The notes below the pieces were generated by a model, which did no database searches, had not been told where the DNA came from, and saw nothing but the letters and a program-made list of their open reading frames with translations. From Nitrospirota bacterium (GTDB taxonomy: Bacteria > Nitrospirota > Nitrospiria > Nitrospirales > UBA8639), in contig JAALKI010000013.1 in NCBI GenBank assembly GCA_011088105.1, positions 3,265-67,264 of the forward strand: a stretch of 64,000 nt of DNA. The letters run 5' to 3'. Shown one piece after another: positions 56 to 36,622 of the stretch (position 1 is the stretch's first letter; every line of letters begins with the position of its first letter). Made by a program: the position numbers and the translations under genes.

Positions 56-1283
56 CACCAGTACACCAATATGTGATGGTTTTGAGCGTATTGTAGGGGC
101 AGTTGTTACCTTTCGAGACATCACGGAGAGAAAAGAAGCTGAACGAGCGATTGCGCAACTGCGTCAACATCACGAATTCATTTTACAAGCTGCCGGTGAA
201 GGGATTTTTGGGCTTAATCTGCATGGCTATCATACGTTCGTTAATCCAGCAGCAGCCCAAATGTTAGGGTACAAAACATCTGAGTTGCTAGGCCAACCCA
301 GCCATACTTTATGGCACCACACTAAAGCAGATGGTAACCCGTATCCTTCCGAAGAATGTCCTATCTATCGTGCCTATAAGGATGGGGCTGTCCATCATGG
401 CAATGAGGAACTCTTCTGGCGGAAGGATGGGAGTAGTTTTCCTGCACAGTATACCAGTACGCCTCTTCGAGACGAAGAAGGGGACTTGATCGGTGCGGTT
501 GTCACATTTTTGGATATCACGAAAAACAAACAGATGGCAGCACAGTTGCTTGAAGAGACTAGACTGGCCGAGGTGACCAGAGTGCTCGGCAATATCGGTC
601 ATGACATGAAAAATATGTTGATGCCTGTTCTCTCGGGTTCCAGCCTTTTACGAGATGAACTCAACGAACAGTTTGATCGTTTGCCAATTGCTGTCAGTCA
701 AACAGAATCACAAAGCCATAAAACCTCGTTAGAAATTCTCGACATGATTGTCAGCAATGCCCGTCGAATTCAGGATCAGGTAAGGGAAATGGCAGATGCC
801 GTAAAAGGTGTAACAAGCCTTCCGGAGTTTATCCCTTGTCAGATCGTAACCGTGGTTGAGGAGGTCCTTGGAACCTTGAGAATGTATGCGGAAGAAAAAG
901 GCATTACCTTGCGGACCCAAAACCTCATGGATCTGCCAACTTTAGAGGCAGACGATCGGCGGTTATTTAATGCTTTCTATAACCTGATTAACAATGCGAT
1001 TCCTGAGATGCCTTCCGGTGGATCAGTGACTGTGCGCGGCTCTATTGAAAAAGATAAGAATGCCATAAAAATCTCTGTGGCTGATACCGGTCGAGGAATG
1101 TCACCGGAAATACGTGATTCTCTTTTTACTTCTCAAGGCATGAGCCGAAAACGGGGTGGGACAGGACTGGGCATAAAAATCGTCAAGGATGTGGTGGATG
1201 CTCATGGGGGAGAGATTACTGTAGAGAGTGAAGAGAGTAAAGGAACAACGTTTCACGTGATCCTACCGATAACGCACACTTAG
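3..1283 (+). CDS. Multi-PAS sensor histidine kinase (5' partial)
   Basis: The reading frame is open from the left edge, so the N-terminus lies outside the window. It encodes the tail of one PAS domain ending in the typical FRDITERK linker, a second complete PAS domain ending in LDITKNK, then a kinase core. The phospho-acceptor is probably the His in GHDMKN near residue 200. The ATP-binding domain shows an N box (NLINNA, about residue 327), a G1 box (DTGRGM) and a G2 box (GGTGLGIKIV). No membrane segment is visible in this part, and no response regulator follows. The next gene, a cytochrome c, starts 54 bases later, so the kinase may sense redox or respiratory state; that is inference. The two PAS copies are nearly identical over a stretch of DNA, pointing to recent duplication or gene conversion. 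Confidence 0.88.
   Translation, partial: GNEELFWRKDGSSFPAQYTSTPICDGFERIVGAVVTFRDITERKEAERAIAQLRQHHEFILQAAGEGIFGLNLHGYHTFVNPAAAQMLGYKTSELLGQPSHTLWHHTKADGNPYPSEECPIYRAYKDGAVHHGNEELFWRKDGSSFPAQYTSTPLRDEEGDLIGAVVTFLDITKNKQMAAQLLEETRLAEVTRVLGNIGHDMKNMLMPVLSGSSLLRDELNEQFDRLPIAVSQTESQSHKTSLEILDMIVSNARRIQDQVREMADAVKGVTSLPEFIPCQIVTVVEEVLGTLRMYAEEKGITLRTQNLMDLPTLEADDRRLFNAFYNLINNAIPEMPSGGSVTVRGSIEKDKNAIKISVADTGRGMSPEIRDSLFTSQGMSRKRGGTGLGIKIVKDVVDAHGGEITVESEESKGTTFHVILPITHT
397..451 (+). repeat. Intragenic PAS repeat (copy 2)
   Basis: Second copy of the 55-base identity seen at bases 1-55, encoding NEELFWRKDGSSFPAQ. The period between the copies is 396 bases (132 codons), the size of one PAS domain plus linker. 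Confidence 0.9.
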
Positions 1284-1337
1284 CTGGCAGGGTATCAGCA
1301 TTATTCGTTCCACGTGACCTTTTGAAAGGAGCCGATT

Positions 1338-1871
1338 ATGGATTTTAAACACGTGGTGTTCTTTATGATGATTTTTTCGTTAAGCACCAACCTTGCTTTT
1401 GCTCGTGGCCAGCATATGATGGAGCCTCGGGTGCCGGCTGACAAAATTGAGGAAGCGCGGGCTCTTAAAAATCCACTTTCTGATTCTCCTGATGTTTGGG
1501 AAAAAGGAAAAGCGTTGTATGAAGGAAAAGGAACGTGCGTGAATTGTCATGGAATAACCGGTCATGGCAATGGACCTGGTGCAGCGAATCTTGATCCTCC
1601 TCCACGCGTCTTTCGTTCCCGAGGATTTTGGATGCACCGTGCGGAAGGGGAAATATTTTGGGTAATCAAGCATGGCTCCCCTGGCACAGCTATGATTCCA
1701 TTCGGGGGGCTCCTTTCTGATGAAGAGATTTGGACAGTGATGCGATACGAGCGCAGTTTTGCAGCTAAGCGTGGCCGTGGTGGTCGACATGGGGTGGAAT
1801 GTTGTGATGGCATGGGCCAAGGCAGAGGATTCAGTGGCAAGAAACGACATGGTATGAAAAGGCACAGATAA
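1338..1871 (+). CDS. Periplasmic monoheme cytochrome c
   Basis: A 177-residue class I c-type cytochrome. Residues 1-22 form a signal peptide ending in LAFA. The single haem site is CVNCH, and GSPGTAMIPF probably supplies the distal Met ligand. The C-terminal 30 residues are rich in Gly, His, Arg and Lys with a CC pair, an unusual basic tail that could bind metal or a partner. AAAGGAG upstream of the ATG is a good ribosome site. It heads a group with the molybdenum enzyme and the two-haem cytochrome that follow, so it is probably their electron acceptor or donor. It is a clear paralogue of the cytochrome at 33608-34108, sharing PRVP, EKGK, CHG, GE-FW, GSPGT and RSF positions. Confidence 0.88.
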   Translation: MDFKHVVFFMMIFSLSTNLAFARGQHMMEPRVPADKIEEARALKNPLSDSPDVWEKGKALYEGKGTCVNCHGITGHGNGPGAANLDPPPRVFRSRGFWMHRAEGEIFWVIKHGSPGTAMIPFGGLLSDEEIWTVMRYERSFAAKRGRGGRHGVECCDGMGQGRGFSGKKRHGMKRHR

Positions 1872-1979
1872 CATGAAGAATGAGTAAAAAGGCGTGCTGC
1901 CAATAAGTATAAATCGTAAATATGATTTTCTATGCAACGTATTGGGGCCTTTGCCCAACAACTTCCAGAAGGGAATGCT

Positions 1980-3245
1980 GTGGGTATTTTGAGTAATAAA
2001 AACAAGACGCTTCCCTCTCTAAACGACTCGGGACTAACGCGACGCCATTTTTTACGGTCAAGTCTTGTTTTAGCGGGATTGGCTCTCCTTGGGGGAAGAC
2101 TGACGTGGGCGGAGGAATCTTCCTTGGTCGATCTCCCCTTTGAACGAGGGCGAAGGCCACTCATTGCCTTTCCTCAGAAGCGGCCACTTATGGTGATGAC
2201 CACTCGACCACCTCAATTAGAGACACCGTTTCATATCTTTAACGACCATCTCCTGACACCAAATGACGCATTTTTTGTGCGTTGGCATTTGGCTAATATC
2301 CCAACACACGTCGATATCAATACGTTCACTCTTCATATTCGAGGGAGAGTGCAGCGTCATCTTTCATTCAGCATGGAAGAATTGAAACGTGATTTCGAAC
2401 AAGTCGAGCTTACGGCGGTCTGCCAGTGTGCAGGAAATAGTCGAGGGTTTTTTGATCCACGTGTCCCTGGAGGACAGTGGGGAAATGGAGCAATGGGTAA
2501 TGCGACATGGACTGGAGTACGTTTACGGGATCTACTACAGAGGGCAGGACTTGAAGCAAATGCCGTTCAAGTTCGGTTTAATGGACTAGACAGTCCGGTC
2601 GCGAGTGGTACCCCAGACTTTCGCAAGTCTCTCGATATAGAAGATGCACTGAGAAAACAGGTCATAGTGGCGTATGCGATGAACGGTGAACGGCTTCCTT
2701 TATTAAATGGCTATCCTCTCCGTCTTATTGTCCCCGGATGGTATGCCACATATTGGATTAAAATGTTGAATGATATCGAAGTCCTCAGTGCAGTGGATGA
2801 GGAGTTTTGGATGAAGCGGGCCTATCGACTTCCAGCTGACCCGTGCGGGTGCGTGGAGCCAGGGGAACGACCGACGTCAACGATACCACTAAGCCGAATG
2901 ACGGTTCGATCGTTTATTACGAATCTCCAGACGGGCGCCTCGATTGCTTCTAACCACCCCATTACTGTCAAAGGCATCGCATTCGATCAAGGATATGGCA
3001 TCGATCGAGTCTTCGTCTCTGTTGATGGCGGGCAGCAATGGCAGTCCGCAAAAATAGGAAAGGACTATGGAGACTTTAGCTTTCGGCCTTGGGAGTTCCG
3101 GTTTATTCCCGTTGCGGGTCGAACGTACCAACTGCAATCCTTTGCCGTGAACCGTATTGGGGAGGCTCAACGATGGCATGCTCGCTGGAATCCAAGTGGG
3201 TACCTCCGCAACGTTGTTGAAACTCTTACTCTAAAAGCTATGTAA
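1980..3245 (+). CDS. Tat-exported sulfite-oxidase-like molybdopterin enzyme (SorA-like)
   Basis: A 421-residue member of the sulfite oxidase family. The twin-arginine motif TRRHFLRSS precedes a hydrophobic stretch, so it is folded in the cytoplasm and exported. The cofactor domain follows with CQCAGNSRG, which contains the Cys that ligates molybdenum in this family, and GYPLRLIVPGWY. An immunoglobulin-like dimerisation domain closes the protein (VSVDGGQQW). I chose the GTG at 1980 because AGAAGGGA lies just upstream and it gives a standard Tat leader. An ATG at 1932 in frame has no visible ribosome site. The next gene encodes a SorB-like cytochrome 10 bases downstream, so the pair probably oxidises sulfite or a related anion in the periplasm. 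The substrate is inferred from family membership only. Confidence 0.87.
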   Translation: MGILSNKNKTLPSLNDSGLTRRHFLRSSLVLAGLALLGGRLTWAEESSLVDLPFERGRRPLIAFPQKRPLMVMTTRPPQLETPFHIFNDHLLTPNDAFFVRWHLANIPTHVDINTFTLHIRGRVQRHLSFSMEELKRDFEQVELTAVCQCAGNSRGFFDPRVPGGQWGNGAMGNATWTGVRLRDLLQRAGLEANAVQVRFNGLDSPVASGTPDFRKSLDIEDALRKQVIVAYAMNGERLPLLNGYPLRLIVPGWYATYWIKMLNDIEVLSAVDEEFWMKRAYRLPADPCGCVEPGERPTSTIPLSRMTVRSFITNLQTGASIASNHPITVKGIAFDQGYGIDRVFVSVDGGQQWQSAKIGKDYGDFSFRPWEFRFIPVAGRTYQLQSFAVNRIGEAQRWHARWNPSGYLRNVVETLTLKAM

Positions 3246-3255
3246 AGGCCTAGCC

Positions 3256-3915
3256 ATGAGGTGCAATCCTTCCTTGCTTAAGATCTATGTGATACTTCTG
3301 TTGTGTGGGATCCTTCCAGGAGGAATAATTGGGAATGATCATGTAAAGGCCGAATCTGTCAGTTTTCCTCATGATCCTGCCACATTCCAGCCAGGGGCAG
3401 GGAGCTCAATTGCATCAGGATATTGCACCATGTGTCATTCTGCGGAATATGTCTATATGCAGCCTCCTCACAATCGAGACCAATGGGCTGAAATTGTAGA
3501 CAAAATGAGACATTCGTTCGGATGCCCTATTCCCGATGAACACGTTTCTCAGCTTGTCGACTACTTGGTAAGCCAAAATTCCTTGCAGTTTCCGGCCTTT
3601 TCCAATCGCGCCAACATGGGATCTTCTTCCAGAAAAAGCGAAGGTGGAAATCCCAACGATGGAAGAAAGCTTTACAGTGTTCATTGTGTCAACTGTCATG
3701 GCTCGGGCGGAAAAGGAGATGGCCCGATCGGCCAGGCATTACTCCCACCGCCAGCTGACTTGACCGCAGCAGGCAACAAGTCAGACGAAGAACTACTGAA
3801 GACCATTCAGAAGGGCCGCCCAGGGACAGCCATGCCGTCCTGGGAACATGACCTTTCCGCTCAAGACATTGACGACCTACTGGCATATTTACGAGTTCTG
3901 AGTCGTCAAGAATGA
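3256..3915 (+). CDS. Two-haem cytochrome c (SorB-like domain fused to a second class I domain)
   Basis: A 219-residue exported protein with an N-terminal hydrophobic leader. The first domain has CTMCHSAEYV followed by QPP and a KM-H-FG-P pattern, which matches the cytochrome subunit of sulfite:cytochrome c oxidoreductase. After a Ser/Gly-rich linker (about residues 115-135) comes a second cytochrome domain with CVNCHGSGGKGDGP and a probable Met ligand in GRPGTAMPSW. SorB is normally a single-haem protein, so the added domain is a built-in electron relay. It follows the molybdenum subunit by 10 bases and is surely co-transcribed. Confidence 0.87.
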   Translation: MRCNPSLLKIYVILLLCGILPGGIIGNDHVKAESVSFPHDPATFQPGAGSSIASGYCTMCHSAEYVYMQPPHNRDQWAEIVDKMRHSFGCPIPDEHVSQLVDYLVSQNSLQFPAFSNRANMGSSSRKSEGGNPNDGRKLYSVHCVNCHGSGGKGDGPIGQALLPPPADLTAAGNKSDEELLKTIQKGRPGTAMPSWEHDLSAQDIDDLLAYLRVLSRQE

Positions 3916-30468: not shown

Positions 30469-31014
30469 TCAACGGTCATTGCCCAGTTCTTCTAAAAGAC
30501 TGACCAGGTCATCGGCATGTTCCTCTTCCATGGCCAAAATTGCTTCTAACAGTCTTCTTGTCGTTGGATCATTGTTTGCCAGATAGTTGATCTGGTCTCG
30601 ATAGCTATCAATCGCAATGCGTTCAGCGACGAGGTCTTCTGTGATCATCTCACGTAAGGTCTTGCCCTCTATGTATTCGGAATGACTTCGACTAAGCATC
30701 CCTTCCGGAGAAAAGTTGGGTTCTCCGCCAAGTTGCACAATTCGTTGAGCAATTTGATCGGCGTGAGTTTGTTCTTCATTCGCATGTTGGAGAAATTCTG
30801 CCGCAACACTTTGTGCGTTAATCCCTGAAGCCATATAATAGTGTCGTTTGTAACGAAGCACACAAACAATTTCTGTGGCCAAGGCTTCATTTAACAATCG
30901 AATCACCGTTTCTCGGTCAGCTCGATAGCCTTGTGTGATGGCCCCTTTTTCTATCTCTTGACGCGCACGTTCTCGTAACGTTTTGATGTCAGTCAGAAAT
31001 GGACTCTCACTCAT
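30469..31014 (-). CDS. Ferritin-like diiron protein (bacterioferritin type)
   Basis: A 181-residue four-helix protein with the ferritin ligand pattern: Glu in NEALATEIVC, the ExxH pair in HANEEQTHADQI, Glu in TEDLVAERIAIDSY and ExxH in MEEEHADDL. It probably stores iron or detoxifies it with peroxide. AGGAGA precedes the ATG. It lies between the peroxiredoxin-like and cytochrome c peroxidase genes, all on the same strand, in an iron/peroxide-stress island. Confidence 0.9.
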   Translation of the reverse strand: MSESPFLTDIKTLRERARQEIEKGAITQGYRADRETVIRLLNEALATEIVCVLRYKRHYYMASGINAQSVAAEFLQHANEEQTHADQIAQRIVQLGGEPNFSPEGMLSRSHSEYIEGKTLREMITEDLVAERIAIDSYRDQINYLANNDPTTRRLLEAILAMEEEHADDLVSLLEELGNDR

Positions 31015-31185
31015 GTGCTTGTCTCCTCTGTTATAGGTTTAGGGCTCCTGTTCTTGTCTTCTCTGGCATGACCAACTCTTGGTCCTCGTGCTCTATCTGC
31101 CATGATGGCAGCAGACGCGCTGTTTGGAGTGAGCCAGGAGCCCTGCATCCTTGTCTATTGTTCTCGTTGCTCCTTCGGGCCGTCA

Positions 31186-32265
31186 TTACCGAGGAAACTG
31201 TGTTGGGGGAGTCATCTGCCAGCCTTCCCCACTAAGTGATTCCAAGAATCTGACAAGATCCTCTTTTTCTTGATCGGTAAGGTTGAGCGGAATAATTAAG
31301 GAATCCTGATGAGGGTTTTTGATTCCGCCCTGGTCATAAAATTCCACGATGGCTTTCAATGTTGCAAACCGGCCATCATGCATGTAGGGGGCCGTTCGAG
31401 AAATTTCTCGCAATGTCGGAGTTTTAAAGGCTCCGATTTGTTCTGGGTTTTTGGTCACGGCATATCGACCAAGGTCAATGTGGTCTGTGTCCCAGTCAAT
31501 GCCAAGGTTATGGAATTTTTCATCGCTAAAGGAAAATCCCGAATGACAACGAGTACAACGGGCTTTTCCTAAAAAGAGTTTCATCCCTCGTTGGGCAGCT
31601 GGTGTCAAGGCTGACTCTTCTCCACCGTAATCAAAGCGATCATACGGGCTATTGCCCGACAGGAGGGTCCGTTGGAAGCTGGCAATGGCTTTGCCGACGT
31701 GATTGATCGTGATCTCCGTACCAAAAACCTTCTGAAACATTGTGCGATAGCCTGCGATCATGTTGATCTTATTTACGAGTTCGTCATGATTCAAAAATCC
31801 ATGTTCAACCGGGCTGACAAATGGTCCAACAGATTGTTCCTCGAGTGTGGCCGCTCGTCCATCCCAGAACTGTTGAAGACTAAAGATTCGATTAATGGCC
31901 GTTGGGGCGCTACGCCCACCTTGCTGACGATGGATTCCTGTGGAGACAGGCTGGCCATCGGTAAATGCCAATGATGGCATGTGGCAACTCGCACAGGCGA
32001 TCGTTTCATTTTGGGAAAGTCGTTTATCAAAGAACAATAATTTCCCCAGTTCGACTTTTTCTTTGGTTAATGGATTGTCCTTGGGAATGATCACTGAGTC
32101 TTCGTCAAGACCAAGAGGAAAAGTGAGCTCGAACGATTCCGTGGCGCTGACAAAGGGAGGGAATGCGATAAATATGCTGATGAGCAAGCTGAGTCCCATG
32201 AAAATAATCAATGTGGGTGCTTTTTCCCAGCATCCGGATGATAGGGTCGTTGTGTGTGGCATCAT
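31186..32265 (-). CDS. Dihaem cytochrome c peroxidase (CcpA/MauG family)
   Basis: A 359-residue periplasmic enzyme with an N-terminal signal segment (about residues 17-40). Haem sites are CASCH, in IACASCHMPSLAFTDG, and CTRCH, in ARCTRCHSGFSF. Family landmarks PLTKEKVELGKLLFFD, GGRSAPTAIN and FKTPTLREISRTAPYMHDG are all present. It reduces hydrogen peroxide with electrons from small cytochromes, of which several are encoded here. AAAGGAGG precedes two adjacent ATGs. The Fur-family regulator gene ends 66 bases upstream on the same strand, so the two probably form an operon under the operator at 32800-32814. Confidence 0.94.
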   Translation of the reverse strand: MMPHTTTLSSGCWEKAPTLIIFMGLSLLISIFIAFPPFVSATESFELTFPLGLDEDSVIIPKDNPLTKEKVELGKLLFFDKRLSQNETIACASCHMPSLAFTDGQPVSTGIHRQQGGRSAPTAINRIFSLQQFWDGRAATLEEQSVGPFVSPVEHGFLNHDELVNKINMIAGYRTMFQKVFGTEITINHVGKAIASFQRTLLSGNSPYDRFDYGGEESALTPAAQRGMKLFLGKARCTRCHSGFSFSDEKFHNLGIDWDTDHIDLGRYAVTKNPEQIGAFKTPTLREISRTAPYMHDGRFATLKAIVEFYDQGGIKNPHQDSLIIPLNLTDQEKEDLVRFLESLSGEGWQMTPPTQFPR

Positions 32266-32331
32266 GAACCTCCTTTTGCAATGGAATGACCATTGCTTCT
32301 ACTGATTAATGGCCAAAATGTGGTTTCTGTC

Positions 32332-32763
32332 TTAATGCTGTGTACGTGTTTTTTGTCGTTTGCCTCTCATCAGAACTTGAATGTCATGTACTTGAAATTC
32401 CTTTGCTAAGGTTGATGTGACTTCAACAAGCTCGGACGGAATATCAACCAGTTCTCCTGAGTCTTCATCCAGAAAATGATGGTGATACGAAATATTCGAG
32501 TCATACAGGATCTTGGCTTCATGCGGCACCTTGACTTCTTTGAGCAGGTTGGCTTCGATTAAAACATTCAGCGTGTTATAGACTGTGGCAAGGCTCAACT
32601 TAGGAAAGTTTTTATCTGCCCATGTCTTAATCTCCTCTGCAGTTGGATGATTCGCCTCACACAGGAGGTACCGATAAATGGCAATTCTCTGAGCCGTTGG
32701 TATAACCCCGGCGGTTTCTAAGCGTCCAGAGATCAGTTTGTTATCTGAGCCATTTTGTTTCAT
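32332..32763 (-). CDS. Fur-family regulator, PerR/Irr-like, without structural zinc cysteines
   Basis: A 143-residue protein with the winged-helix region (TAQRIAIYRYLL, LSLATVYNTLNVLIEANLL) and the metal-binding segment SYHHHFLDEDSGELVDI of the Fur family. The CxxC that holds the structural zinc in Fur and PerR is replaced by Leu/Asp, as in Irr-type members. The Asp in GELVDI is the PerR-type ligand rather than the Glu of Fur. It probably senses peroxide or haem/iron status and represses its own gene and the adjacent peroxidase, because a matching operator overlaps its promoter. Confidence 0.85.
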   Translation of the reverse strand: MKQNGSDNKLISGRLETAGVIPTAQRIAIYRYLLCEANHPTAEEIKTWADKNFPKLSLATVYNTLNVLIEANLLKEVKVPHEAKILYDSNISYHHHFLDEDSGELVDIPSELVEVTSTLAKEFQVHDIQVLMRGKRQKTRTQH

Positions 32764-33174: not shown

Positions 33175-33582
33175 TTAACAGGGTTGCCCATTAAACAAAC
33201 ATGGCTTAAAACGGGAAATGTCAAAGTCAGTGTTTTCTTGGTATACCAGTTCGTTGCCATTAACCCCATCAAGGAGGGGATCATTCCACATGGTATGGTC
33301 CCACCAGTAGAAAATAGGATGTTCAGGAATATAGTAGACTGGATTGCCATATTCGCTGCGGGAATGATTTTCTACCGTCCGCCCTGTGACATAATCGACC
33401 TCTCCATTGCCCTGGAGAGAATACAGCGATAGGAAGAGACGGGATTCATGATCATAAATTTCATCCAGCCGTGTGCTTTCATCTGGTTCAATGGGGAGAG
33501 ATGGGGATGCCGTACTATCTAGATCCGTTGCCAGAATGCCTAAAACGATACAAACAAGAAAGAAAGGACATGCGGATTTCAT
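33175..33582 (-). CDS. Secreted protein of unknown function
   Basis: A 135-residue exported protein that I do not recognise. Residues 1-28 form a signal peptide. The mature part is acidic and aromatic-rich (IFYWWDHTMWNDP) with a Cys pair at the C-terminus (KPCLFNGQPC). The start at 33582 follows AGAGGAAACT. It is third in a leftward group after the DUF1264 and cytochrome genes, 25 bases behind the cytochrome. Confidence 0.7.
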   Translation of the reverse strand: MKSACPFFLVCIVLGILATDLDSTASPSLPIEPDESTRLDEIYDHESRLFLSLYSLQGNGEVDYVTGRTVENHSRSEYGNPVYYIPEHPIFYWWDHTMWNDPLLDGVNGNELVYQENTDFDISRFKPCLFNGQPC

Positions 33583-33607: not shown

Positions 33608-34108
33608 CTATTTTTCATAGTGTAGAGAGGATGAGGTCTTTGGTGATGATTGTCCAAAAGATCGAACATAGAGTAAAACTTTCCACGCTTCTTCTTCAGT
33701 CAACACAAGAGGGATAAAGGGTGCCATATCTGTCCCCGGACTGCCATTTTTAAGGATCCAAAACAGTTCTCCATCGGTGCGAGCTGCTTGCCAGGCTCGA
33801 TCCGTAAAATTTCTGGGTAGTTTCCCACGCAGGCCAGGGATATTGCCAAGACCTGTGCCATCTTCTCCATGGCACGTGACACAAAAGGCTTTGCCGTGAA
33901 AAATGTGCTTGCCTTTTTCAATGTTGTCCGTTGTCGAGGGGAATGGGTTATGCCAGGTTTTCGCTTCTTGGATTTGATCAACGGGAACACGAGGTTTCAA
34001 GACTGCTGGGTCTGCAGCTCCGGCGACCCCATGACTGCTGAGAAGCATGGCGATGCCAATGAATACGTGCCTTACTCTTCCGCATGGCTGCTTGTACATC
34101 ATATGCAT
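33608..34108 (-). CDS. Periplasmic monoheme cytochrome c
   Basis: A 166-residue class I cytochrome with a signal peptide ending GVAGAA and a single haem site CVTCHGEDGTG. The Met ligand is probably in GSPGTDMAPF. It is a paralogue of the cytochrome at 1338-1871, aligned along its whole mature length except the latter's basic tail. It lies in the leftward group behind the sigma-54 promoter at 35015-35029, 52 bases after the DUF1264 gene. Confidence 0.88.
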   Translation of the reverse strand: MHMMYKQPCGRVRHVFIGIAMLLSSHGVAGAADPAVLKPRVPVDQIQEAKTWHNPFPSTTDNIEKGKHIFHGKAFCVTCHGEDGTGLGNIPGLRGKLPRNFTDRAWQAARTDGELFWILKNGSPGTDMAPFIPLVLTEEEAWKVLLYVRSFGQSSPKTSSSLHYEK

Positions 34109-34160
34109 TCAATATCAAGCGATGCGAGAGGACCATCGGTCCTCTCGCATCATTCTTGTC

Positions 34161-34769
34161 TTACTCAGGTTGATTGAAAATATGCCCTAAAGATTGTGGG
34201 AAGGTGACGGTTCCATCAGGGAATTCTTTCCCTTTTTGCCAAAGATGATAGATCACGCCATCAGTCTTTGATGCGGCTTCCGCTAAGGCTTTGATTTTAG
34301 TCGGATCATCAATATCCAAAATTTTGACACGCCCTGTTGCGATTTCTTGCTTGTGATCATGGAAATACCGATGCCATTGGATCAATGGAAGTGTGCGTGA
34401 AAGTTCTTTGGCCACAAAGTATTCGATTGCAACGAGTGGAGCATTCGGAGCGGTGGTTTCAAACAACAGGCATTGTAAGATCTTATCGGAAATCCCTTTG
34501 CAATAGTGATGATATGGCCCACCAGGTGTGCCATCGGGCATCAAATGTGGCGCCTGGATATGAATGGTATAGCCTTCAGCAGGGCTGCCTGATCCTACAT
34601 TGGCATTCTTTTTCGAACTAGTTGTACTAGGTGCAGACTTCATGCTGGAATGATGAGACTTCCCATCAGAGCCGAAGTATTCCACGCCAAATGCTTGGGT
34701 TGTGAGAAATGCTCCTGCCAAAAAACTCATGGCTATGACCATGATTATCGATTGAGTTGAGCGATGCAT
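34161..34769 (-). CDS. Exported DUF1264-family protein
   Basis: A 202-residue protein with a signal peptide, a Ser/Lys-rich linker, then a DUF1264-like domain (GGPYHHYCKGI, ILQCLLFETTAPNAPLVAIEY, LPLIQWHRYFHDH). Related plant proteins are oil-body-associated proteins; the bacterial role is not known. AAGGAGG sets the ATG at 34769. It is the first gene after the sigma-54 promoter, with a leader of about 230 bases. Confidence 0.78.
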   Translation of the reverse strand: MHRSTQSIIMVIAMSFLAGAFLTTQAFGVEYFGSDGKSHHSSMKSAPSTTSSKKNANVGSGSPAEGYTIHIQAPHLMPDGTPGGPYHHYCKGISDKILQCLLFETTAPNAPLVAIEYFVAKELSRTLPLIQWHRYFHDHKQEIATGRVKILDIDDPTKIKALAEAASKTDGVIYHLWQKGKEFPDGTVTFPQSLGHIFNQPE

Positions 34770-35014
34770 TGCAACCTCCTTCAGTAAAAACAATAGGTAA
34801 ATGATGATAGAGCCTGTTTTCTCTTAACAATGTTCACGAAAATGACGCGCTTCGAGCATTGTATTCGGTGCCACTGCATTCTGACAAACACCGTCATCGA
34901 GAGTCGATACCGATTCGCATAGTATACAAGCAAGCTCTGGTCTAGAGGAACTTCTTCTGATGATTGGAATGGAATAGCTGTGTGGCGAAATTCCAATCAC
35001 GTTGTTAAGGTATA

Positions 35015-35029
35015 GCAAGGCTCGTGCCA
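35015..35029 (-). promoter_or_regulatory. Sigma-54 (-24/-12) promoter
   Basis: On the minus strand it reads TGGCACG-AGCC-TTGC, followed by TA: a full match to the consensus TGGCACG-N4-TTGC, with the invariant GG and GC ten bases apart. Transcription would start near 35003 and run left into the DUF1264, cytochrome and secreted-protein genes. The gene for a sigma-54 activator is the next gene upstream. Confidence 0.85.
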
Positions 35030-35045
35030 ATTTCCCTGTGGTAAC

Positions 35046-35103
35046 AACTCTTTGAAATAGGTCATCTCAATCCTTTGAAATAGGTCATCTCAATCAAAGA
35101 GTT
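35046..35103. promoter_or_regulatory. Probable upstream activator sites for the sigma-54 promoter
   Basis: Two copies of an imperfect dyad TGAaAT-N5-ATcTCA lie 23 bases apart (about two helical turns). They are bracketed by a perfect 10-bp inverted repeat, AACTCTTTGA (35046-35055) and TCAAAGAGTT (35094-35103). Relative to the predicted start they span about -43 to -100, a normal place for enhancer sites of NtrC-like activators. Confidence 0.65.
35050..35095. repeat. Two-copy perfect 23-bp tandem repeat
   Basis: Unit 1 is 35050-35072 and unit 2 is 35073-35095. They are identical at all 23 positions, starting CTTTGAAATAGG. The units carry the dyads described for the activator sites. Confidence 0.95.
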
Positions 35104-35251
35104 ATGAGGCTACGACGAAAAGAACGGCATGCCGGGAAAGTCGAAATCGTTAAGCTGTTAACTTAACGTATTGTTGATGTGTTAATGAGTGATTGTCCTT
35201 CAACAACGGCGCGCTTTCTCGATACGCATGGCTTCAGCCAAGGTCACCTGG

Positions 35252-36622
35252 TCAGGAGATACCAAATCGTTGAAGTTTTTTCCAAAGGGTAACGCGACTG
35301 TATCCAAGCAATTTTGCTGCTTGACTGCGGTTCCCATTGGTTTGTTGAAGAGCGTCTTGTATGCGTTGAGGTTCAGCGTCATCTTCTTGCCGAAGCTGCC
35401 GGGAGGAAGACGTGTGTTTGATTGGACGGGACTGGCGAATTTCTGATGGGAGATCTAATAAGGTAATTGATTCGCCACTGATTGTGACAAAGGCATGTTC
35501 AATGGCATTTTTGAGTTCTCGGACGTTTCCAGGCCAGGAATGTTGAATGAGGTGCTGCAAGGCGTCTTTGGCGATATTTTTCACGGGACGTTGGTGAGTG
35601 CGAGATCCATCCGCAATAAAAGAGTTGACTAATAAAGGAATATCTTCCCGTCGTTCACGTAAAGGCGGTAGCGCAATTTCAAAGACGCGAATACGATAAT
35701 AAAAGTCTTCTCGCATCTCACCGGATTCTAATAAGCCTTTGACGTTTTGATTGGTTGCCGTGACGATCCGCACGTTGATTGTCCGTGCACGTTCATCTCC
35801 CACTCTTCGAATTTCGCCTTCTTGCAGGACGCGAAGTAGTTTCAATTGGAGGATGGGACTCGTGTCTCCAATTTCATCTAAAAACAGCGTCCCACCATCT
35901 GCTGCTTGAAACACCCCGATCTTGTCTCGAACGGCTCCGGTAAATGCGCCTTTGACATGGCCGAACAAGTCACTTTCTAGAAGCGTTTCAGGAATGGCGG
36001 AACAATTGATGGCATAGAATGGTTGATCTTTCCGGCTACTCAATGCGTGGATGGCTCGGGCTGCGAGTTCCTTCCCTGTTCCGGATTCTCCAGTGAGTAG
36101 AATTGATACCTCACTTTGTGCCGCCAAGCGAAGTCGGCGAAACACTTCTTGCATGATGTGGCTTTTTCCAACTAATTGTTGAAAGGCCTCTCGGGATTTG
36201 ACTTGCTCCTCTAGGACGGCAATCTTTTCACGAGCTAGGATAAACGCCGTTAAGTCTGTAAATGTTCCGATTGCCCCTTGGATCTGCCCTTGTTCATCTC
36301 TCAGGGCAGAGATATTGCCAAATAAGTAGAGTTCTCGTCCGTCTTTTGAGAGCACTTTGCATTCTTGATTACAGATACCCCATGGGTACGGTGTGGGGTT
36401 TTCTAAAAACTCCGTTAGTTTATTGAATCCTTTGCAATTTTGTCCCTCTAAAATATGACAGGATTTTCCAACAACGTCCTGGCTCGAATACCCTGTAATC
36501 CGTGTGGCCCCCACACTCCACGCCCTAATCATGCCATGGGCATCGACGGTAAACACCCCGTCTGCGATGGCGTCAATCATGGTACTGAGAATACTAGGAT
36601 TGCTGCGGAAATCTAATTCCAT
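35252..36622 (-). CDS. PAS-domain sigma-54-dependent transcriptional activator
   Basis: A 456-residue NtrC-type protein. An N-terminal PAS domain (residues 8-130, ending [13 protein letters not shown]) replaces the usual receiver domain, so it senses a ligand or redox signal directly. The AAA+ domain has Walker A GESGTGKE, the sigma-54 contact loop GAFTGA and Walker [11 protein letters not shown] Fis-type helix-turn-helix closes it ([20 protein letters not shown]). The PAS domain contains two Cys ([19 protein letters not shown]) that could hold a metal or haem. A consensus sigma-54 promoter with tandem dyads lies just downstream, making the DUF1264-cytochrome group its likely target. Confidence 0.92.

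Follow-up and report, generated by a model that had tools for sequence, protein, structure and literature searches.

A conserved predicted sigma-54 promoter and GTTAAC array beside a putative persulfide-response operon in lineage-IV Nitrospira

How would a small operon for a DUF1264 protein, a cytochrome c and a secreted protein be switched on, and by which signal? In the window, that is, the whole 64-kb stretch of DNA analysed here, a -24/-12 element sits between the gene of a sigma-54 activator and this gene set, which lies on the same strand (Table 1). The sequence-only reading had described the element as a full -24/-12 match, and it is indeed an exact YTGGCACGN4TTGCW that agrees with the RpoN promoter consensus YTGGCAYR-N4-TTGCW, including the invariant GG and GC. 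Each of the 25 loci that have this activator upstream (the window and 24 relatives from one family) has a site at the equivalent position, 143-250 bp past the activator stop codon, and two further loci of the family carry one 133 bp past the stop codon. The strict pattern TGGCAYRN4TTGCW has 11 matches in the 2.6-Mb genome, compared with 2 for the reversed pattern, and rpoN is encoded in the genome (G000, contig C70; PF04552, E 1.5e-57). By these comparisons, the element is a predicted sigma-54 promoter beside its activator, conserved family-wide. Positions relative to the expected start, as given below, are good to a base or two.

Table 1. Features of the operon, its activator and the region between them (window coordinates).
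Feature	Position	Strand	Remarks
Activator (ACT): PAS with Cys55, 63, 84, 88; AAA+ with GAFTGA; Fis-type HTH	35252..36622	minus	Pfam
Candidate upstream activating sequence CGTTAAGTTAACAGCTTAACG	35148..35168	minus	core GTTAAGTTAAC at 35157-35167
Exact IHF-type match TAACTCTTTGATT	35092..35104	minus	pattern match, at -98
Perfect 23-bp tandem duplication with TTGA...TCAA dyads	35050..35095	minus	private to this genome
IHF-like site, one mismatch	35065..35077	minus	position of the site in relatives, about -72
Predicted sigma-54 -24/-12 promoter TTGGCACGAGCCTTGCT	35014..35030	minus	predicted start near 35003
DUF1264 protein with signal sequence	34161..34769	minus	Pfam PF06884
15-bp hairpin, poor T tract	34120..34152		between DUF1264 and cytochrome c genes
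Cytochrome c, cyt579-like	33608..34108	minus	Pfam and NCBIfam
Secreted protein, 135 aa, no known family	33175..33582	minus	56 of 60 relatives, Nitrospirales-wide

The activator bears the PAS, Sigma54_activat and HTH_8 domains of Pfam together with the GAFTGA motif, as had been claimed for it. Its AAA+ domain with GAFTGA and Walker A and its Fis-type HTH are those of a bacterial enhancer-binding protein of the NtrC family. Orthologues that are 70-78% identical are found upstream of the DUF1264 and cytochrome c genes in most genomes of the family, which is most likely UBA8639 or lineage IV in the naming of PMC12342949. The PAS cysteines Cys55, Cys63, Cys84 and Cys88 are invariant in 24 full-length family orthologues. 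Cys55, Cys63 and Cys88 (or an aligned equivalent) are also kept in those Planctomycetota copies that cover them, and Cys84 varies in a few distant copies, being missing in L163, L179 and L180.

A side-by-side view of 26 activator-promoter intervals revealed a second dyad, CGTTAAGTTAACAGCTTAACG, that the sequence-only reading had overlooked. It is located just past the activator gene, about 135-163 bp upstream of the expected start, and forms part of an array that follows the pattern GTTAAC-nn-GTTAASTTAAC-nn-TTAACG across the intervals. The core, with at most two mismatches, is present in 24 of 25 regions (2.3 expected from dinucleotide shuffles, maximum 6), and GTTAAC in all 25 (1.8 expected from dinucleotide shuffles). 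An exact copy of the core is present at this locus and nowhere else in the genome; because about one occurrence per genome is expected by chance, its weight comes from place and conservation and not from the count. The conservation counts span ten genera of one family and Planctomycetota and are not phylogenetically independent. At 14 DUF1264 loci of the order without an upstream activator, a search of 900 bp upstream found the array at none, with one isolated two-mismatch core at -579 that lacks GTTAAC, and 13 of the 14 had no -24/-12 promoter. Fisher tests of activator versus non-activator loci gave 7e-11 for the array and 2e-9 for the promoter, values whose significance is overstated because related genomes were treated as independent. 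The array sequence was not matched here to any published site. Among the 11 strict sigma-54 sites of the genome, the array or the exact dyad of the 23-bp repeats described below was found at this promoter only; a regulon wider than one operon was considered and rejected, the other 10 sites having neither. The one locus without an activator that does have a promoter, L029 of G024, has lost both activator and array and keeps a bare -24/-12 element, which has the look of a decaying regulatory site.

Nearer to the promoter lies the element that had been proposed as the enhancer. The two perfect 23-bp tandem repeats with dyads were found as described, with TTGAGATGACCTATTTCAA in each copy (35052-35070 and 35075-35093), and so was the bracketing 10-bp inverted repeat (AACTCTTTGA/TCAAAGAGTT, 35046-35055 and 35094-35103). 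In the window, no other perfect tandem has a period of 10-60. When the 26 intervals were compared, the dyad was seen in the window alone (1 of 25 activator loci), being absent beside the -24/-12 site in all 24 others; in the genome, this is the only promoter that has it, and two partial matches elsewhere fall within coding sequence. It is very improbable that the two TTGA...TCAA dyads serve as the enhancer to which the activator binds. The activator gene is adjacent, and the perfect tandem dyads do lie 20-65 bp ahead of the -24/-12 element, but they are missing at the 24 other loci even though all the family orthologues share the recognition helix SRVTLWKK, they recur at no second promoter of the genome, they are very near the promoter for an enhancer, and a different, conserved array, that of GTTAAC, is also present in the window. 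The earlier interpretation was borne out for the promoter and its activator and failed in assigning the enhancer to the repeats, which are probably not the binding site of the activator.

The repeats occupy the position where 20 of 25 loci have an IHF-like site. Under the pattern YAAN4TTGATW with at most one mismatch, 18 of 25 loci have such a site between array and promoter, on the same strand and at -71 to -75, and widening the range to -66 to -82 brings the number to the 20. The window contains three matches, at -98 (exact), -71 and -48. All three are within the tandem repeat or at its edges, and for this reason we interpret the repeat as a duplication that arose locally, in the region of the bend. 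Homologues of both IHF subunits are encoded in the genome, alpha scoring above one curated cut-off (118.7 versus 111) and beta just below (112.7 versus 115).

The three downstream genes were confirmed as the sequence-only reading had listed them, the secreted protein having no match in Pfam or NCBIfam. For DUF1264, ATG 34769 behind AGGAGGT (34774-34780) is a better start codon than TTG 34793 and gives a leader of about 234 nt from the expected transcript start. Another 10-bp inverted repeat (TGATTGGAAT/ATTCCAATCA, 34961-34999) is located in the expected 5' leader, just past the start, and an Rfam search of the window matched no RNA element. The hairpin between the first two genes is a possible attenuator or processing site; as it is strong, expression of the cytochrome c gene may be below that of the DUF1264 gene. 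Structural models of the DUF1264 and secreted proteins (pLDDT 79 and 75) had no PDB match with E below 0.1, and titles and abstracts of the bacterial DUF1264 literature yielded nothing informative. A C-terminal DUF1264 fragment of 55 aa in the same genome (L126, 6790-6954, contig C37 of G000) is apparently a broken second copy. Downstream of the operon, at 30469-32763 of the minus strand, are genes for a PerR-like Fur regulator, an MbnH/MauG-like di-haem protein and a ferritin/bacterioferritin-like protein, which are not conserved beside the operon in relatives.

In most relatives, the operon opens with a 470-500-aa protein that comprises a metallo-beta-lactamase (MBL) and two rhodanese domains, followed by a rhodanese-YgaP membrane protein and DUF2892 proteins. 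Small proteins, then DUF1264, the cytochrome c and often the secreted protein come after this head. The MBL-rhodanese-rhodanese protein matches PDB 3tp9 and 3r2u over its full length, the latter of which we take to be the Staphylococcus aureus CstB-type protein, and its MBL part matches the persulfide dioxygenases human ETHE1 and BpPRF. Judged by these matches, the first operon gene of the relatives is predicted to encode a persulfide-dioxygenase/rhodanese fusion. The dioxygenase is absent from the operon in the window, in genus g3 and in G004 and G005, and those g3 genomes that lack it and have the activator retain promoter and array. A 53% paralogue is encoded on contig C22 of the genome studied here, with no further member of the operon among its neighbours. 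Planctomycetota orthologues of the activator (52-65% identical) directly precede dioxygenase and rhodanese genes in L167, L169, L170, L175 and L180, and in some Planctomycetota loci a -24/-12 site, along with repeats resembling GTTAAC or TTAGCGCTAA, lies between the activator and dioxygenase genes. Since dioxygenase and rhodanese genes stand behind the activator in two phyla, the shared core would be the activator plus persulfide oxidation. A second, diverged locus of this kind in some relatives (L162 and L084) comprises DUF2892, the dioxygenase, a further secreted protein (ORF173), DUF1264 and a cytochrome c; that of L162 has its own activator copy.

Because the operon of the relatives starts with persulfide-dioxygenase/rhodanese and rhodanese-YgaP genes, a response to sulfane sulfur of the FisR type is indicated. 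Genes of sulfide oxidation are activated by FisR, a sigma-54 regulator (PMC7315123, PMC9774590, PMC9495516) in which a Cys53-Cys64 tetrasulfide forms upon reaction with sulfane sulfur (PMC9495516, PMC9774590), and the FisR of Acinetobacter baumannii activates its operon in a sulfide-dependent manner although it lacks the cysteines of the Cupriavidus protein (PMC7315123). As with FisR in Cupriavidus pinatubonensis and A. baumannii, a sigma-54 activator adjoins persulfide-oxidation genes in the relatives and in Planctomycetota, though not in the window's operon, and as in Cupriavidus FisR the cysteines are in the regulatory domain. Unlike FisR, the present activator has four cysteines and a spacing of 8 residues instead of 11, no SQR gene was recognised in its operon, and its targets include DUF1264, a cytochrome c and an orphan secreted protein. 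As the spacing differs and FisR was compared by its published description, we say that the activator works like FisR and do not take membership as proven. A plasmid search for a FisR-like gene returned distant NtrC-family proteins alone.

Two other systems bear comparison. The full-length MBL protein with two rhodanese domains in the relatives' operon is reminiscent of CstB-type persulfide dioxygenase-sulfurtransferases. The known regulators of CstB-type genes, CstR and BigR, are repressors, whereas a sigma-54 activator adjoins here, and the window's own operon is without the CstB-type protein. The promoter region resembles a classical NtrC/NifA-type promoter in its -24/-12 element, its upstream array at the distance given above and the IHF-like site between them, and differs in that the upstream sequence is a GTTAAC array.

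We favour, with a probability of roughly 60%, a single-target sigma-54 regulon that is a FisR-like sulfane-sulfur (persulfide) response operon, trimmed here to the DUF1264, cytochrome c and secreted protein genes. The earlier view of a signal-responsive gene set with no described counterpart can be narrowed to a FisR-type response. The promoter, array, orthology, gene order, cysteine invariance and presence of RpoN and IHF genes are read from the DNA; from these we infer binding, bending, the signal and a physiological role, including the functions of DUF1264 and the secreted protein. In this scheme, the activator would bind the GTTAAC array and IHF would bend the DNA at an IHF-like sequence around -73, after which the activator's AAA+ domain would open the polymerase with sigma-54 at the -24/-12 element. 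As for the signal, sulfane sulfur (persulfide or polysulfide) would most likely react with the PAS cysteines in the manner of FisR. Ancestrally, the operon might have encoded the persulfide dioxygenase/rhodanese together with a periplasmic module of DUF1264, cytochrome c and secreted protein, and this genome would have dropped the dioxygenase and rhodanese genes from the operon, leaving the periplasmic module. Counting against the sulfur reading are the window's operon without a dioxygenase, the only paralogue being elsewhere, the cysteine spacing unlike that of FisR, the A. baumannii FisR that is itself without the Cupriavidus cysteines, the DUF1264 and secreted proteins for which no fold match was obtained, and the hairpin that parts the first two genes.

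Within the same architecture, the cysteine PAS might instead hold an Fe-S cluster or metal site that responds to oxygen, NO or redox state, and induction of the sulfur genes would be part of a general redox response. Four invariant cysteines with a C-x3-C pair could ligate a metal, and the downstream products of the operon are cytochrome and secreted proteins, but persulfide dioxygenase and rhodanese are the partners shared most widely, across two phyla, and Cys84 is lacking in the distant copies mentioned above; we regard this alternative as rather unlikely. Less likely still is that the locus is a relic whose persulfide genes are gone and whose operon is kept by drift or for another purpose. 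The missing dioxygenase and rhodanese genes, here as in genus g3 and G004/G005, and the bare promoter of G024 would fit such decay, but promoter, array and activator are intact in the window, its three genes have full-length frames, and the dioxygenase-less g3 genomes with an activator likewise keep promoter and array.

Under the favoured persulfide reading, the window offers a possible outlet for the product. The product of persulfide dioxygenase is sulfite, and elsewhere in the window (261-3915, plus strand) lie genes for a PAS-HATPase kinase, a cyt579-like cytochrome c, a SorA-type sulfite dehydrogenase and a SorB-like cytochrome, a periplasmic sulfite-oxidation cluster. Within it (1338-3915), the cyt579-like cytochrome c is 43% identical to that of the operon, and SorA scores 584 bits (cut-off 600). 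SorAB would oxidise sulfite to sulfate with a cytochrome c as acceptor, and we infer that the operon's cytochrome c may be this acceptor. More tentatively, and with the odds somewhat against it, the three products of the window's operon (DUF1264, the cyt579-like cytochrome c and the secreted orphan) might make up a hitherto undescribed periplasmic module with which nitrite oxidisers oxidise sulfur or protect themselves from sulfide. A sigma-54 sensor with a cysteine PAS would induce it by way of a GTTAAC enhancer, of which Planctomycetota share a modified form, and the module would feed electrons alongside the window's SorAB.

Nitrite oxidisers of Nitrospira lineage IV are common in the sea, and sulfide:quinone oxidoreductase is encoded in few of them (PMC12342949). 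If the persulfide reading is true, a family-wide, sensor-controlled persulfide operon explains how they meet sulfide, and bacterial DUF1264 and a Nitrospirales-wide orphan protein gain a functional setting. The GTTAAC array provides a precise candidate operator for testing. The switch, conserved across the whole family and common to some Planctomycetes, would most likely turn on sulfur-detoxification genes when reactive sulfur reaches the cysteines of the activator.
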